Assembly: GCF_014284155.1 (NCBI RefSeq)
Contig: NZ_JACOFZ010000001.1
Coordinates: 372,001-436,000, forward strand
DNA length: 64,000 nt
From: Affinundibacterium nitidum
GTDB lineage: Bacteria; Pseudomonadota; Gammaproteobacteria; Burkholderiales; Burkholderiaceae_D
Direction of reading: 5' to 3'
This document shows, one piece after another, positions 41,145-47,391 of this stretch; within the stretch, counting starts at the first letter, position 1; each line of letters begins with the position of its first letter. The notes beneath the pieces were generated by a model that saw only the letters and a list, made by a program, of their open reading frames with translations, was not told the DNA's origin and did no database searches. The position numbers and the translations under genes are program-made.

Positions 41145-43286
41145 ATGAAGTATCCAGTAAAAACTGTAATCGCTTCAATGCTTGCCATCGCTTTTGTCGG
41201 TAATGTTCAAGCAGCCAATAGCAGCGATGCGGACAACATCACGTTTTTCAGCGGCTATAAAGCAAGCAATCCACAAGAAGTACTGCGCCAACATGCGTCA
41301 CGCTTTGGTCTACCGAGCGACTTGAGTAATCTCGTACTTACACGTGTTCAAGACTCATTAACTGGTAAGCACTATTACTACCAACAAATGCTGCGCGGCT
41401 ACCCTGTTGATCGCGCTGAGATTATTGTTTCCATCAGCAAAACTGGGGAAGTTCAAAAGATCTACAACGAAACAAAACATATCTCCGCAAAGATGGACGC
41501 GAATGCAGTCAATCAACTCTATGTACAGAAGCGACAAGATACAGAAAAAGCTTTAGACCAAGCATGGAACAACATGAAAGTTCAACATGCATTGGTGAGT
41601 TCCCCGAAGACTGATCTAGTATGGGTGCCAACGAAAGATGGCGTTCAACTTGCACACAAAGTCAGCATCGCAGCACAGATGCCAACGGGTGGTTATGTTC
41701 AGTACTTGAATGCCCATACAGGCGATATGTTGGACTACTATTCAACTTCTCTCCCACGCGTAGGCAAGAATACAGACCGTAGCCTCGAGGCACGCGCCAA
41801 CTCATTCGCACCGACTTTGGATCGCCAACAAGCGATGAAAGATCTCGCTGCAAAGGGTTTAACAACAGCAGCAAGCACCACCAATTCGCTGACAGCTTTA
41901 GCAACGGTCGCATCAGGAATCAATGGTTCAGGTTTAGTGTTTGACCCTGATCCACGTACTGCACTAAACACCGACGCACTGACTGATACTTCCGCTGCAT
42001 CTGCATTCGACGCGGCATACTCAACAAAGACTTTAAAAGATCTAACCGTCACTTCTGGTGTCTACAAACTGAGTGGCCCCTACGTCAACATTACCAATAT
42101 CGAAGCGCCAAATACAGCACCGAGCACAACAAGCAATGGTGTGTGGACAGCGAAGCGTGGAAATAATGCATTTGATGACACCAATGTGTATTTCCATATC
42201 GACCAAAATCAACGCTACATTCAGTCACTTGGATTCACAGGAACCAAATCCATCATTAATCGCCCATTGAATGTCGATACAGATGGCGTTAACGGCGATG
42301 ACAACTCTCACTATAGTGGTGGCGCTAGCGACTACCTCGCCTTTGGTCATGGTTGTGTGAACGATTCCGAAGATGCCGACGTCATCTTGCATGAATACGG
42401 CCACGGCATTCAAGCCAACATCAACTCCAGCTGGAGCGGCGGCGACACTGGCGCGATGGGTGAAGGTTTTGGCGACTACTGGGCGGCTTCCTATTCATAC
42501 AGCACACCAAATGGAAAAACCTATCATCCAGAATGGGCATTTAGTTGGGATGGGCATGGCGCGTGTTGGGCAGGCCGTATGTTGAATCGTACCGATGCCA
42601 AATACAACAGCACAAAATCCTACGGAGCACACACCTCAGTCACAGAAGGTGGCGTCACTTTCCAATCAGATGAATTATGGTCTGCGCCCTTGTTCCAATC
42701 ATTGGTATCACTCGTTGCAGCTGGCAAAACCCGTGAAAACGTCGACAAAATTATTCTCGAAGCGCATTTCGGCTTGGGTGCGAATGTGAAGATGCCGGCG
42801 ATGGCTAGCGCGATCGTCAATGCAGCGAATACACTCTTCCCTTCTGACCCGACATATGCCAATACATTTAAGGCTAAGTTCGAAGCACAGAATATTCTAA
42901 CGACAGTTACACCTCCAGGAACGACGATTAGCGAAACTGAAAGTAACAACACAACAGCAACTGCGAACAATATCGCAACGGCCAATACCTTGGTCAATGC
43001 CACGATGAGCGCAAGCACTGATGTTGATTACTTCAAAGTGAGCACCCCTGCAGGCAAGACTTTGACCTTAACTTTGAAACCAAATGCAACTTCAGACTAC
43101 GATCTTGAGTTGTATAGCAGTTCAGGCACCAAAGTTAGTTCCAGCACAAATGGCACTGGCGCAACAGATACCATCACCAGTGCCAATACAGGAACAACGG
43201 CAAAAGTCGTTTATGCAAAAGTGATTTACTATGCTGGCGGCACGGGCGCTACCAGCGGCAAATACACGCTGACAGCTGGTTGGTAA
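41145..43286 (+). CDS. Secreted gluzincin metallopeptidase (M36/M4-like) with PPC domain
   Basis: 713-residue secreted zinc protease. A signal peptide (cleaved after VQAA, about 24) precedes an FTP/PepSY-like propeptide (RQHASRFGLPSDLSNL, YYYQQMLRGYPVDRAEI) and the catalytic domain with HEYGH (416-420) and a third ligand Glu at about 440 in GAMGEGFGDYW, as in fungalysin-type M36 rather than thermolysin. A C-terminal pre-peptidase domain (about 604-712, SETESNNTTATAN to GKYTLTAGW) is the usual secretion appendage. GGGAGAG precedes the ATG. Confidence 0.88.
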   Translation: MKYPVKTVIASMLAIAFVGNVQAANSSDADNITFFSGYKASNPQEVLRQHASRFGLPSDLSNLVLTRVQDSLTGKHYYYQQMLRGYPVDRAEIIVSISKTGEVQKIYNETKHISAKMDANAVNQLYVQKRQDTEKALDQAWNNMKVQHALVSSPKTDLVWVPTKDGVQLAHKVSIAAQMPTGGYVQYLNAHTGDMLDYYSTSLPRVGKNTDRSLEARANSFAPTLDRQQAMKDLAAKGLTTAASTTNSLTALATVASGINGSGLVFDPDPRTALNTDALTDTSAASAFDAAYSTKTLKDLTVTSGVYKLSGPYVNITNIEAPNTAPSTTSNGVWTAKRGNNAFDDTNVYFHIDQNQRYIQSLGFTGTKSIINRPLNVDTDGVNGDDNSHYSGGASDYLAFGHGCVNDSEDADVILHEYGHGIQANINSSWSGGDTGAMGEGFGDYWAASYSYSTPNGKTYHPEWAFSWDGHGACWAGRMLNRTDAKYNSTKSYGAHTSVTEGGVTFQSDELWSAPLFQSLVSLVAAGKTRENVDKIILEAHFGLGANVKMPAMASAIVNAANTLFPSDPTYANTFKAKFEAQNILTTVTPPGTTISETESNNTTATANNIATANTLVNATMSASTDVDYFKVSTPAGKTLTLTLKPNATSDYDLELYSSSGTKVSSSTNGTGATDTITSANTGTTAKVVYAKVIYYAGGTGATSGKYTLTAGW

Positions 43287-43341
43287 AGACTCTTTAGGCA
43301 CGACCAAAACACAATCAAAGTTTGATCGAGCTTGGGAATCT

Positions 43342-43387
43342 AAAAAAAATGCCGCTGCAAATATTTATTTTGCAGCGGCATTTTTTC
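43342..43387. terminator. Bidirectional terminator
   Basis: Eleven-base perfect stem GCCGCTGCAAA (43351-43361) and complement (43369-43379), A run on the left (43343-43349) and T run on the right (43381-43386). It ends the metallopeptidase gene from one side and the slyD/J-domain operon from the other. Confidence 0.93.
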
Positions 43388-43409
43388 TTTCACATTCGGT
43401 TTTACAAAT

Positions 43410-44678
43410 CTAAGTTTTCGCCTTGGATGCAGCTTTAACAATGTGACAATTCTCACTCAGGAAACGCAGAGCACCTGAGTAATTAGTATCCCAATCATCA
43501 AGTAAATAGTTATTGGCCTCTTCAACGAAAGCACTCCAATCTTCTAACAAACCTTCCTGTTTTTCATGCGGTGCTGTGTTTTTAATCCACTCGACAGTAC
43601 GCTCATGATCCAAGCCTTGTTCACGTACTTTTTTCACAATCGACTTTGCCGTCTTCTCTGGGATGCTAGTCTTCGCGGGCATCTCAGCAGCGATGCACAA
43701 AAACAATGTCAAGAGCGAATCTACGTCAGTCTTACCCTTCGTTAGTTTTGCCCACTCCTTCGACACCAAAGCGTCATACTCCGAGGTATCTTCCATCTCA
43801 TGAGCGCAAATAAAATAGCGCTCTTTCAATTCGAACACTAACTTATCCAACGAATTCTTAGCATCTGCGATCAAAGGAAAATCACGCAATTGCATTTCTT
43901 CAAGGATGTGCAGACTGAGCTCGTGAAACTTTCCAGGAATATCACCATCAAGAATGATTTGACGCCCTAACTCAACATCAAATACAGGTGATTTCTTTTC
44001 TTTCGCTTTCGGCTTCTTGCGCAAACTCTCGATTAGCGTTGCAAACTCAACTTGGTTCTCAATTGGAGAATCAGGCTCGCCAACCAAACGTTTCAAGATA
44101 GCCGTACGAACCACGGCACAAGCCTCAACATCCTCTTCTTGCAATTCCGTTTGCGTCAAATCCATGCTGTGGCCAAACCAAAAACCCGCTTCTATTTCAA
44201 GGGCATTGATCTGACGATAAGCAAGCAAATTACGATATTCTTGTGGCTTATCCTTGAGTGACCAGACTTCCAAAAACTCTTCGACGCGGCCTTTTTGTTC
44301 TCGCCCAAGTAGCGCATATTCAGGCAATGCAAACAAAGCTTTGAGCAAGCCCGAACCACCACGAGAGAGCGTCAAGAAAGTATTATCACGAATCAGTTTT
44401 GCAGCAATATCCAGATCACCTTGGGACGTTTCTAGCAAATACAAACTCGCTAAGTTGACAATGCGCTTTCGCGCCAGCTCAATCTCCGGACGCAGATATT
44501 TGCTACCAAAAGCTTCAGCAATTTGTACCAAACCTTTCGGCGCTTCACTGGCGATTGTCTCTAATTTAGCCTTGGTTAAGATGGCATTACGCACACCATG
44601 ACGTAAAGCCGTTTCAAAGAACGGTCTATCGTCATAGAGTGCAATCGCCTGCTCGCTGTACATGCGTTTTTCTGTCAT
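43410..44678 (-). CDS. Unrecognised 422-residue protein of the J-domain operon
   Basis: I do not recognise this family. No signal peptide or membrane helix. The sequence looks all-helical and mostly soluble, with a lysine-rich hinge (KKPKAKEKKSP, about 215-225) splitting it into two halves; the second half is rich in acidic and aromatic residues (WIKNTAPHEKQEGLLEDWSAF, YLLDDWDTNYSG). It starts 19 bases after the 256-residue gene and is the last gene of the operon before a bidirectional terminator. No catalytic motif is evident. A scaffold, client or adaptor of the chaperone partners is a guess only. Confidence 0.85.
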   Translation of the reverse strand: MTEKRMYSEQAIALYDDRPFFETALRHGVRNAILTKAKLETIASEAPKGLVQIAEAFGSKYLRPEIELARKRIVNLASLYLLETSQGDLDIAAKLIRDNTFLTLSRGGSGLLKALFALPEYALLGREQKGRVEEFLEVWSLKDKPQEYRNLLAYRQINALEIEAGFWFGHSMDLTQTELQEEDVEACAVVRTAILKRLVGEPDSPIENQVEFATLIESLRKKPKAKEKKSPVFDVELGRQIILDGDIPGKFHELSLHILEEMQLRDFPLIADAKNSLDKLVFELKERYFICAHEMEDTSEYDALVSKEWAKLTKGKTDVDSLLTLFLCIAAEMPAKTSIPEKTAKSIVKKVREQGLDHERTVEWIKNTAPHEKQEGLLEDWSAFVEEANNYLLDDWDTNYSGALRFLSENCHIVKAASKAKT

Positions 44679-44697
44679 TGCGGTCTAAATTCGAAAA

Positions 44698-45468
44698 TTA
44701 CAATGCAGACTCTTCGTCATCGTCATCGCCATCGTCGTTATTCTTTTTATTCGGCGCGACTTCATCATCCTCTTCCTCTTCGCTAACTTGACCTTCAGCG
44801 AACTCGTCATTTTGCAAATTACGCAGATACACTTGATAGCGTGCGCGTAATTTCATCAACACTTCACGGAAAATCTCAGGCAATTCGTAGCGTAGAATGT
44901 AAGTGACTTCCATCCAATCGTGGTCTTCTACACTTGCCCTATCCATGGAAGAGGCACGCGTTTCTGTATCGCTGGTGAGGCTCAAGAGATCATCATCAAT
45001 CGCTTGTGTTTTCGATTCATCACCGTACTCATACAAATCAAACGTCGCATAACGATAGAAGTGCTCTACCATTTGCGTACGGTCTTGTAGATAATCAGCC
45101 AAAGAATCATAACCACCTTCGACCTCTGCAATCTCATACAAAAATTCCGCTGCGTCTGCGCCATCACGGAAAATTACGGAATTGATCATCCCGCGCAGCT
45201 GCTCATGCGTGAGATCTTTGTAGCGTTTTTCCAAAACTACGGCCTGCGCAAATTGTTCGGGGGTCACTAACAAATTCACTAACGATTCTTTGGACGCATC
45301 ATATTCACGAATAATGGCCAGCAAATCCTTTGCCGGGAATTCATCCAATGCTGCCACCAAAGCTTGATCGCCTTCTGTTTCAGCCAAAGTAGCCAATGCA
45401 TGTTCAGCACCGGCGATATCGCCAGCCTTTACTAAACTTTGTGCTTCTATCAATGCTGGATAATGCAT
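44698..45468 (-). CDS. Unrecognised acidic-tailed protein of the J-domain operon
   Basis: 256 residues, family not recognised. The first 60 residues look like short helical hairpins (IEAQSLVKAGDIAGAEHALA, reminiscent of TPR-like packing but without a clean repeat). The middle is helical and aromatic (QMVEHFYRYATFDLYEYGDE). From about 222 the tail is almost all Asp, Glu and Asn (EEEEDDEVAPNKKN then a run of Asp). AAGGATATTT precedes the ATG. It follows the 194-residue gene by 33 bases. Predicted cytosolic; function unknown. Confidence 0.85.
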   Translation of the reverse strand: MHYPALIEAQSLVKAGDIAGAEHALATLAETEGDQALVAALDEFPAKDLLAIIREYDASKESLVNLLVTPEQFAQAVVLEKRYKDLTHEQLRGMINSVIFRDGADAAEFLYEIAEVEGGYDSLADYLQDRTQMVEHFYRYATFDLYEYGDESKTQAIDDDLLSLTSDTETRASSMDRASVEDHDWMEVTYILRYELPEIFREVLMKLRARYQVYLRNLQNDEFAEGQVSEEEEDDEVAPNKKNNDDGDDDDEESAL

Positions 45469-45501
45469 AAATATCCTTTTTAAAATAATGTAAAGGGCCG
45501 C

Positions 45502-46086
45502 TTAATCTTTGCGGTCAAAGCCTTGCTCTGCCAACCAATCAGCGCCTGCCTCTTCGAGATCTACATCGTCGCCATCATCCCCATCATCACGTCCGTGGCG
45601 ACCGTAATTTCCATCGAGATCACTATCTTCATGCGATTCATCTTGCTCATCTTGATCTTCGTTGTCGTCTTGCTCTGCAACCGCATTCGCGCGCGTATGG
45701 TGGCTGCGACTCAGGTATTCCAAACAAGCAGCAGTGACTAAGAAACGATCCCCCTCTTCTTCCGCCAACACTAATTTTGCCAACTTATCTGCCCACGGCT
45801 CCAACTTGACTGCAGCAGCTAAGCTTTTCCAGCTTGGTAGCTTGTTACCTTCTTTTGATGCCAAGTTTTCAAAGACCAAGGGGTTCATGAAAAGGAAAGC
45901 ACCATGAAAGGCGGTGACCAACATTTCGGGATTTTCTCCCATCATCGGAAGTAGAAATGGCAGCTGCTCGCGCTTTTCTTTCAAACGATGACGCATGACG
46001 TCCTTGCCTTCAGAATCGGTACGCAAATCGTCCAACTCTGCTTTATAGACCAACATCAATTCTTGAAAATAACGCGAAAACTTCAC
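45502..46086 (-). CDS. Second unrecognised acidic-tailed protein of the J-domain operon
   Basis: 194 residues from GTG 46086, which overlaps the stop of the J-domain gene as GTGA and has AGGAG 7 bases upstream; a longer frame from a TTG is less likely. The N-terminal 135 residues look helical (KFSRYFQELMLVYKAELDDL, LLPMMGENPEMLVTAFHGAF). From about 140 on it is a long Asp/Glu/His tail (NEDQDEQDESHEDSD, RDDGDDGDDVDLEE). No known domain or membrane segment. The translational overlap argues for a physical or stoichiometric link to the J protein. Confidence 0.85.
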   Translation of the reverse strand: MKFSRYFQELMLVYKAELDDLRTDSEGKDVMRHRLKEKREQLPFLLPMMGENPEMLVTAFHGAFLFMNPLVFENLASKEGNKLPSWKSLAAAVKLEPWADKLAKLVLAEEEGDRFLVTAACLEYLSRSHHTRANAVAEQDDNEDQDEQDESHEDSDLDGNYGRHGRDDGDDGDDVDLEEAGADWLAEQGFDRKD

Positions 46087-46361
46087 TGCAATACTCCTGT
46101 TAAATAATTCTGCCAAATTTCAGTGGCGGTCTCTATCGGTGACTCTAAAAGATTACGACGACGATTTTCATCGTAAGCGGAACGAGCCGACTCATCCGAC
46201 AAGACATCGTAGGCCTCTTTCACGGCATGGAACTTCATTGGAGCTAATTCGGAGCTGTTGCGATCTGGATGAAATTCCGCCGCCTTGACCCGATAGGCTT
46301 TTTTGATGTCGGCCAGTGAGGCATTCGTCGCCACACCCAGAACAAAATAATGATCCTGCAT
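46083..46361 (-). CDS. Minimal stand-alone J-domain protein
   Basis: 92 residues, essentially only a J domain. It has MQDHYFVLGVATNASLADIKK, the HPD motif in EFHPDRNSS (31-33), and the final helix YDVLSDESARSAYDENR. J domains stimulate DnaK ATPase; nothing here encodes a client-binding region, zinc fingers or a Gly/Phe stretch, so partners must supply specificity. ATG 46361 is chosen; a longer frame from a TTG at 46388 adds nine odd residues. Its stop overlaps the start of the next gene by 4 bases. Confidence 0.88.
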   Translation of the reverse strand: MQDHYFVLGVATNASLADIKKAYRVKAAEFHPDRNSSELAPMKFHAVKEAYDVLSDESARSAYDENRRRNLLESPIETATEIWQNYLTGVLQ

Positions 46362-46411
46362 GAGGAATGCTACTCCTATTAAACACAAGCGATACGAACT
46401 AACTTCGCTCT

Positions 46412-46443
46412 CGATCGACCATAGAAACGTCTATGATCGATCG
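46412..46443 (-). other. Intercistronic hairpin between slyD and the J-domain gene
   Basis: Thirteen-position stem, 46412-46424 against 46431-46443, loop of 6. On the plus strand one position is a C/A mismatch, but on the minus-strand RNA it becomes a G-U wobble, so the helix is complete only in the direction of the operon. No U tract follows, so it is not a standard terminator; a processing or stability element is possible. Confidence 0.6.
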
Positions 46444-46453
46444 GAAATCTGGA

Positions 46454-46936
46454 CTACTCGTGATGATGCCCGCCTGCGCCATGCACGTGACCATGCGCGA
46501 TTTCTTCTTCCGTTGCTGGGCGCACATCCAATACATGCGCTTCGAAACGCACTTGCATGCCAGCCAAAGGGTGATTGCCGTCCACTGTCACTTTACCGGC
46601 ATCGATCGCCGTTACACGAAATTGTGCAGACTCGCCCGTCTCTGGATCGCGCGTTTCAAACATCATGCCGATTTCCAAATCTGGTGGAAACAACCCAACA
46701 TCTTCCTCGTGCACCAAACTTGGGTCAACTTCGCCGAATGCATCGTCCGGATCCATTGTCACGGAAATTGTTTTGCCGACTTCTTGACCGTCCAATGCCG
46801 CCTCAACCGCTGGCAAAATATTGTCATAGCCACCATGCAAATAGACGATAGGATCGTGATTCTTGTCGATCATGACACCAGAAGCGTCAAACATTTCGTA
46901 GTTCAAGCTTACGACTGAGTTCATTGATATTTGCAT
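46454..46936 (-). CDS. slyD: SlyD-type FKBP prolyl isomerase
   Basis: Peptidyl-prolyl isomerase and chaperone. The FKBP core is split by an insert-in-flap domain as in SlyD: VVSLNYEMFDASG, then the IF insert (FGEVDPSLVHEEDVGLFP, FRVTAIDAGKVTVDGNHPLAGM) and FEAHVLDVRPA. The 14-residue tail is His/Gly-rich (HGHVHGAGGHHHE), the nickel-binding kind. 160 residues. Probable first gene of the operon; the next gene (J-domain) is 92 bases downstream with a hairpin between. Confidence 0.93.
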   Translation of the reverse strand: MQISMNSVVSLNYEMFDASGVMIDKNHDPIVYLHGGYDNILPAVEAALDGQEVGKTISVTMDPDDAFGEVDPSLVHEEDVGLFPPDLEIGMMFETRDPETGESAQFRVTAIDAGKVTVDGNHPLAGMQVRFEAHVLDVRPATEEEIAHGHVHGAGGHHHE

Positions 46937-47391
46937 AGTCTTAGATATTTCTGATTAATTTGTTTTGATTAATGTGACGAGAATGAAGAACACATTCTGT
47001 AGAAAGACCGTCATTGTATCAGAGCACGAATTGGCCGTATCGCTCGATTTTTCCTCTACAAAACTGATCTGCATTAAAGATTTCCCTATAAAACCCTACG
47101 AAATACCAGTTTTTCAATCATGACAAGCCCAAAAAAGACCACCTGAGGTAGAATTGCGCCTGTAGAAAATTTTGCTCAATTGGCCCTAGCACAAGACTCG
47201 CCAAAAAAGTTAGAAATCGAGTTCTAAAATAAGATCAAAAATCGGACTCTCAAGACCCAGCAGAAGGTTCAACGGAAGAATACATGATGTAGAAGATAAG
47301 TAATTGTCTTCTGATTAGATGAACTTTGGATAAGTTATCTGGTCTATTGCAGCGAAAACAATTTAGAGATCTAAGTAGTCCAAGGAAAACA
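46937..47391. other. Divergent slyD / flavoprotein intergenic region
   Basis: 455 bases with no gene I can support. On the plus strand it contains a sigma-E-like promoter (47320-47347) for the flavoprotein gene. A slyD promoter must lie on the minus strand, but I found neither a good sigma-70 nor a sigma-32 (CCCCAT-type) match there. Confidence 0.5.
47320..47347 (+). promoter_or_regulatory. Candidate sigma-E promoter for the flavoprotein gene
   Basis: TGAACTT (47320-47326), a spacer of exactly 16, then TCTAT (47343-47347). It shares GAACTT-N16-TC with the candidate rpoE promoter and would start transcription about 40 bases before ATG 47392. Only two bases of the -10 are strongly diagnostic, so chance is possible. 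Confidence 0.4.

Follow-up and report, generated by a model that had tools for sequence, protein, structure and literature searches.

A diverged beta-proteobacterial atcJABC operon, probably a DnaK-targeting and possibly a cold-growth system, in Undibacterium or a near relative

The Atc system is already known, and the four-gene operon found in the window, which is the whole 64,000-nucleotide stretch of DNA that was analysed, is a diverged member of it. It very probably represents a beta-proteobacterial branch of atcJABC, carried by Undibacterium or a near relative and likely working as a DnaK-targeting system, which may serve growth in the cold. In Shewanella oneidensis, atcJABC (SO_1850, 1849, 1848, and 1846) is a DnaK co-chaperone operon needed for growth at 7 °C, as described by Maillot et al. 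(2019, PMC6715715). The initial annotation had proposed the four genes of the window as a candidate for an undescribed system, a proposal that is no longer tenable because homologs of all four proteins stand in the same order in the Shewanella operon (PMC6715715). The result removes a false “new system” and provides a hypothesis on the function of four genes that are left unnamed by the family libraries used.

Table 1 The atcJABC-like operon and its surroundings (positions in the window)
Feature	Position	Strand	Description
J (atcJ-like)	46083..46361	-	92 aa; J-domain protein; HPD; C-terminal tail with P-x7-W (SPIETATEIW)
A (atcA-like)	45502..46086	-	194 aa; starts with GTG; has an acidic stretch and EQGFDRK as conserved C-terminal peptide
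B (atcB-like)	44698..45468	-	256 aa; modeled as helical; acidic tail of low confidence, with EESAL at its end
C (atcC-like)	43410..44678	-	422 aa; residues ~16-235 AtcC-homologous, 236-422 without detectable relative
Hairpin with A and T runs	43342..43389 (about)		Intrinsic terminator, probably bidirectional; RNA fold and sequence
FKBP-type prolyl isomerase gene	46454..46936	-	Neighbor, not part of Atc; Pfam FKBP_C E 0.0021, below cut-off

The operon that had been read from the sequence proved to be real: its four genes lie on the minus strand, the GTG start of A overlaps the stop codon of J as GTGA (46086-46083), the gaps between A and B and between B and C are 33 and 19 bases, respectively, and a strong hairpin follows C. 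The start of A is preceded by AGGAG, and the same GTGA was found in 19 of the 20 beta-proteobacterial relatives checked, with ATGA in the remaining one. The hairpin, at about 43346-43384 in its narrower delimitation, lies ~20 bases past the end of C, and a convergent plus-strand gene ends toward it from the other side. Its folding energy of -30.4 kcal/mol (z -7.65) was equaled by none of 200 shuffled sequences. The hairpin was not listed in a consensus terminator scan of positions 43200-47000, perhaps because its T run was counted as stem, and the minus strand yielded nothing promoter-like in the consensus scan of the same region. As for the products, the description of J as a minimal J-domain protein of 92 residues with HPD agrees with its match to Pfam DnaJ (E 4.5e-21), and A, B, and C are free of membrane or signal segments according to a reading of their translations.

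Searches of the family libraries with the window's own proteins gave only faint signs of their identity. The NCBIfam ActJ/AtcJ model NF050028 matched J with 62 bits over residues 1-86, below its cut-off of 150 and also below the 76.9 bits given to the same protein by the general DnaJ model. The AtcA model NF047888 matched A with E 0.0012 and 18.7 bits against a cut-off of 200, and the AtcC model NF047890 matched C with E 0.0005 and 19.7 bits against a cut-off of 370, while B showed no match to the AtcB model NF047889. The equivalog cut-offs of these four models were reached by none of the four window proteins, which are consequently not filed under NF050028, NF047888, NF047889, or NF047890. 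The best E values for A, B, and C were only 0.035 with Pfam and 0.11 with PHROGs, and PADLOC gave no matches to the four operon proteins at E up to 1. The earlier statement that the three partners of J match no known family thus stands for Pfam, PHROGs, and PADLOC, but it fails for NCBIfam, given the weak AtcA and AtcC matches. Single-protein matches to AtcA may, moreover, be inflated by acidic stretches.

A compact operon of unknown proteins might also suggest a phage-defense or toxin-antitoxin module, and A does have a weak NCBIfam match to a defense kinase model (E 0.015). We give this idea almost no credence and rejected it on the absence of PADLOC matches; the retention of C in nearly all genomes of the genus, described below, is also unlike the patchy occurrence of defense genes.

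The connection with Atc becomes clearer when relatives of the window proteins are considered. Among the aligned relatives, 14 of 21 for A and 19 of 22 for C matched the respective NCBIfam models AtcA and AtcC at E up to 0.01, with best values of 9.4e-7 and 1.7e-7. For B, only 3 of 22 matched the AtcB model at E up to 0.1 (best 0.0016), and the HflD model matched more of the same 22 proteins (six, best E 0.065). For profile-profile comparison by hhalign, the window-type loci and 11 distant beta-proteobacterial loci were combined into one beta set. The gamma-proteobacterial counterparts were taken from loci found with the AtcC model in 38 of 295 genomes of one order (that of G556), 34 of them above the cut-off; 18 of the 38 were fetched and divided into a main gamma set (g1, the 14 above the cut-off) and a second gamma set (g2, the 4 below). 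Representatives of these loci exceed the Atc cut-offs, given here in parentheses: J of L064 scored 175 bits (150), and L062 reached 273 (200), 488 (440), and 512 (370) bits with its A, B, and C, respectively.

Comparison of the beta set with g1 gave 99.6% for J, 95.8% for A (E 8e-9), 75% for B (2.5e-5), and 89.9% for C (1.7e-6), while the highest value among 96 mismatched pairs was 4.96%. In that run the A set of the third lineage, which is described below, had been badly trimmed, and 12 comparisons were redone after trimming. Against g2, the beta set gave 89% for B, 20% for A, and 3% for C. With A and C this weak against g2, the beta proteins connect by way of g1, and g1 and g2 are themselves connected with 94.5%, 98.9%, and 95.9% for A, B, and C, respectively. 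With a narrower beta set, the values against g1 were 89% for A, 45% for B (83% to g2), and 84% for C. The columns in which A is aligned with gamma AtcA lie ahead of most of the acidic stretch. Judging from these sequence comparisons, the links of A and C to AtcA and AtcC appear well supported and that of B moderately so, with gene order and position adding weight; the relation between B and AtcB seems to be the weakest link in the homology of the operon. When the Shewanella AtcC model was run across the class, the window genome alone matched (1 of 369); this sample seems to be empty or nearly empty of Enterobacterales, as SeqA was found in none of the 114 of a smaller one.

It could be argued that the four genes form an unrelated, undescribed system that looks like Atc simply by sharing a J protein, given that the curated cut-offs are unmet and the single-protein matches are weak. 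We regard such a coincidence as very improbable because AtcA, AtcB, and AtcC are each matched by the partner at the corresponding place in the operon, the mismatched controls are clean, and the J tail is shared. The weak NCBIfam matches to Atc models, the counts for AtcA and AtcC among relatives, and the hhalign links with their clean mismatched pairs led us to reject the undescribed system.

The tail of J provides a motif common to these lineages. The C terminus of the window J protein reads SPIETATEIWQNYLTGVLQ, and PX7W is present in all 23 window-type J proteins, the window's included, in all 14 of g1 and all 4 of g2, and in all 34 named loci with a J protein, whose species are largely the same as those of the window-type set. 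Nine of the 11 distant beta J proteins have the motif, the other two having A or F instead of W, and 4 of 8 J proteins of the third lineage have it, P being absent from the other 4. Besides the window J, a DnaJ and a J-domain protein that is HscB-like by reading were found in the genome, and neither has PX7W after HPD. Shuffling the window J tail produced the motif by chance in 2.6% of cases. The P-x7-W of the J tail is presumably the published AtcC-docking motif. Weber et al. (2023, in Environ Microbiol) reportedly described an AtcJ subfamily of environmental proteobacteria, encoded in operons with homologs of atcA, atcB, and atcC, and the AtcJ tails of beta- and gamma-proteobacteria are said in that work to carry PX7W, whose tryptophan drives AtcC binding. 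The window locus fits such a subfamily. In a literature search on Undibacterium, cold adaptation, and J-domain proteins, with the work of Weber et al. lying outside its scope, Undibacterium was absent from the matches listed. Few of the papers listed for the Atc names were relevant, and PMC8215388 mentions the Shewanella work in its references alone.

The arrangement of the genes is as well conserved as the motif. The order J-A-B-C on one strand is kept in 22 of 23 beta-proteobacterial loci and in 34 of 35 named loci, including that of Sapientia aquatica; the sole miss in each set is a cut contig (L127 among the named loci), and L110, in which A and B are read as a single frame through a stretch of N, is counted among the ordered loci. 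This neighborhood survey bears out the expectation that the genes are kept together in relatives and led us to reject a chance grouping. Within the genus, 23 of the 25 genomes searched have the C gene, the window's among them, and the two in which it was missed are 65% and 94% complete. Beyond the genus, it was found in 1 of 16 other genomes of the order in one sample, in 14 of 349 of the order, and in 73 of 246 of the family.

The likeness to the S. oneidensis operon includes the short J gene placed first and followed by A, B, and C in the same order, a J protein with HPD and a tail (of 21 residues in S. oneidensis), the P-x7-W in the J tails of the gamma relatives compared, an acidic-tailed A, a B of ~250 residues, and an AtcC with a homologous N-terminal half. 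The sizes, 92, 194, 256, and 422 residues in the window against 94 residues, 20 kDa, 29 kDa, and 34 kDa in Shewanella (PMC6715715), agree closely apart from that of C. There are also differences: all four window proteins are under the NCBIfam cut-offs, AtcC has 422 residues instead of ~297, A and B end in other C-terminal peptides, and an FKBP-type gene stands upstream. The spacing of J and A also differs: the two genes overlap by 4 bases in the window, whereas 8-24 bases separate them in 74 of 80 published genomes and the distance in S. oneidensis is 120 bases (PMC6715715).

Homology, gene order, and motif conservation are the properties established for the window operon itself, onto which DnaK stimulation, the binding of AtcJ to AtcC and of AtcC to AtcB, and the cold phenotype are transferred from S. 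oneidensis. In that organism, Maillot et al. (PMC6715715) describe a functional J domain in AtcJ that stimulates DnaK, binding of the last 21 residues of AtcJ to AtcC at 7 nM, and binding of AtcC to AtcB; strains without J, B, or C, but not the strain without A, grow very poorly at 7 °C. AtcB contacts RNA polymerase, according to a meeting report (PMC7871303). By analogy, the J domain of the window AtcJ would likely switch on ATP hydrolysis by DnaK through its HPD, and its short tail would likely dock on AtcC, presumably on the conserved N-terminal part, via the tryptophan of P-x7-W. AtcC would in turn carry AtcB, and together AtcJ, AtcC, and AtcB would hold DnaK at a single destination, which may be RNA polymerase reached via AtcB, and would thereby allow growth in the cold, with AtcA as an accessory protein. 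That the destination is RNA polymerase and the trait is cold growth in the window organism as well can be suggested only tentatively, and we are slightly more doubtful than confident on this point. The idea in the initial annotation that a dedicated J protein and three partners make up a DnaK-targeting complex is, by the same analogy, the likely reading.

The partners might instead be clients that the J protein passes to DnaK, in the manner of HscB and IscU; HscB is also encoded beside its client, as discussed in the Shewanella report (PMC6715715). This seems unlikely because the affinity of 7 nM between Shewanella AtcJ and AtcC is, in the view of its authors, difficult to reconcile with a short-lived interaction with a client (PMC6715715), and A, B, and C showed no convincing match to client families in Pfam and NCBIfam.

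What distinguishes the proposed beta-proteobacterial Atc branch is found mainly in AtcC and in the ends of A and B. The window C exceeds the Shewanella AtcC model, which has 297 positions, by 125 residues. Its residues 1-235 gave 92% with gamma AtcC and 98% with C of the third lineage, though only 5.7% with C of g2, while residues 236-422, 187 in number, reached at most 4.2% against 11 profiles, the end of gamma AtcC included. The C-terminal EQGFDR of A is invariant in all 21 aligned sequences and the ESAL of B in all 22; in the 11 distant beta loci B ends in EESAL (7), EESAI (2), EELAI (1), or EDDVL (1), and gamma AtcB has DDMFSFLD-like peptides instead. The conserved ends of A and B come after acidic stretches, with pLDDT below 50 for residues 226-253 of B, and they look like docking peptides. 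The structure model of C is nearly all helical (pLDDT 75.7, pTM 0.53) and that of B all helical (pLDDT 68.4, pTM 0.58). Neither model had a match in the PDB at E 0.001 in a fold search, and the mixed AtcC and AtcB profiles found no relative in the PDB by sequence. Among the 50 matches shown for B, TPR-type helical repeats were recurrent, all with E above 0.1.

These lineage-specific parts raise the possibility that the family is the same but its job has shifted, with DnaK tethered elsewhere via the tail peptides of AtcA and AtcB and the C-terminal half of AtcC, in a role other than growth in the cold. The last 187 residues of AtcC, unmatched among the profiles tried, the variation of the terminal peptides by lineage, and the unrecognizable A of the third lineage are in its favor, as is the statement in another report (PMC10939069) that Atc proteins likely confer unresolved functions on DnaK. 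We consider it possible but doubtful because the J tail motif and the N-terminal half of AtcC are retained, and the tail is the AtcC-binding part in Shewanella (PMC6715715).

The third lineage emerged from the 73 family matches to C, of which 15 were weak and partial and came from three genera (g626, g468, and g595). All eight loci fetched from these 15 have a J protein with HPD, an acidic-tailed protein of 164-172 residues at the position of A, and then B and C, which as trimmed have 257-261 and 290-302 residues, respectively. Compared with the window type by hhalign, B gave 97.8% and C 98.3%, but the trimmed A reached at most 3.5% against three other A sets, homology being undetectable. Comparison of the third-lineage B with the main gamma set (1.4%) and of C with the second gamma set (9%) also failed. 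No genome in the match list, in which not every candidate was scored, has both types.

A broader reading, which we offer as a speculation with rather less than even credence, treats Atc as a wide-ranging, modular device for targeting DnaK. The J tail and the N-terminal half of AtcC would be its constant core, and lineages would exchange A, the remainder of AtcC, and the end peptides of A and B so as to direct DnaK to different targets. If so, the unmatched second half of the beta AtcC would act as a novel targeting domain, and a further undescribed type would be seen in the third lineage, with its J, unrecognizable A, B, and C of 290-302 residues. Should the mechanism hold beyond S. oneidensis, the beta branch would serve as an independent test of the essential parts of Atc (the J tail and the N-terminal half of AtcC) versus lineage-specific aiming.

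The FKBP-type gene upstream, which we take to be SlyD-like, lies 92 bases from J on the same strand. A relative of it occupies the upstream position in 30 of 35 named loci and in 19 of 23 fetched beta stretches versus 0 of 18 gamma stretches, with 1 of 20 in further stretches.

A side observation concerns DUF6178 (PF19676). This family was found in none of 180 sampled genomes, where the controls were likewise silent, and our literature search found no paper naming it. None of 21 AtcB members matched DUF6178, leaving the notion that it is an AtcB-AtcC fusion unsupported from the AtcB side, and the window's own AtcC has no match to it in Pfam. AtcC of the third lineage, by contrast, matches it with E 4.3e-6, and 9 of 21 mixed AtcC members gave E values up to 1, the best being 1.5e-6; the single match with a stated position covers 285-358 of the 561 profile positions. 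In the modular reading offered above, the constant half of AtcC would, in part of the family, have a stretch in common with DUF6178.

A relative of the FKBP-type (SlyD-like) gene upstream of atcJ was found in 30 of the 35 named loci, in one of 20 further stretches and in none of the 18 gamma-proteobacterial stretches searched. The gene may contribute a second folding helper to the atc neighbourhood. At the other end of the operon, the 713-aa protein carries a thermolysin-type propeptide motif and a weak, below-cut-off PPC match; it is likely a secreted metalloprotease. Its gene and atcC face one and the same hairpin.

Features in and around the atc operon of the window
Feature	Position	Strand	Remarks
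FKBP-type (SlyD-like) prolyl isomerase gene	46454-46936	-	strand of atcJ, 92 bases upstream of it
713-aa gene	41145-43286	+	convergent to atcC; Pfam FTP 4e-9
AtcB C-terminal peptide EESAL	44698-44740	-	conserved, behind acidic stretch
AtcA C-terminal peptide EQGFDRK	45502-45540	-	conserved, behind acidic stretch

The C-terminal peptides of the window type differ from those of the other lineages: gamma-proteobacterial AtcB ends in a DDMFSFLD-like sequence, and A of a third atc-like lineage in a DDFAQMFDQE-like one. This lineage (loci L179-L185 and L189), hosted by genera of the window organism's family and described from 8 of 15 weak matches, comprises J, an acidic-tailed and unrecognisable A, B, and C of 290-302 aa.

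A Pfam DUF6178 stretch is common to 9 of the 21 AtcC members (best 1.5e-6), including L189:3146-4015, and the profile has about 284 more positions ahead of the displayed AtcC match. One genome from the window organism's family, 1.7 Mb in size, has AtcC solely as three pieces (G1286:C22:805-1803), two of which contain a stop codon, and judging from these it looks like a decayed copy.
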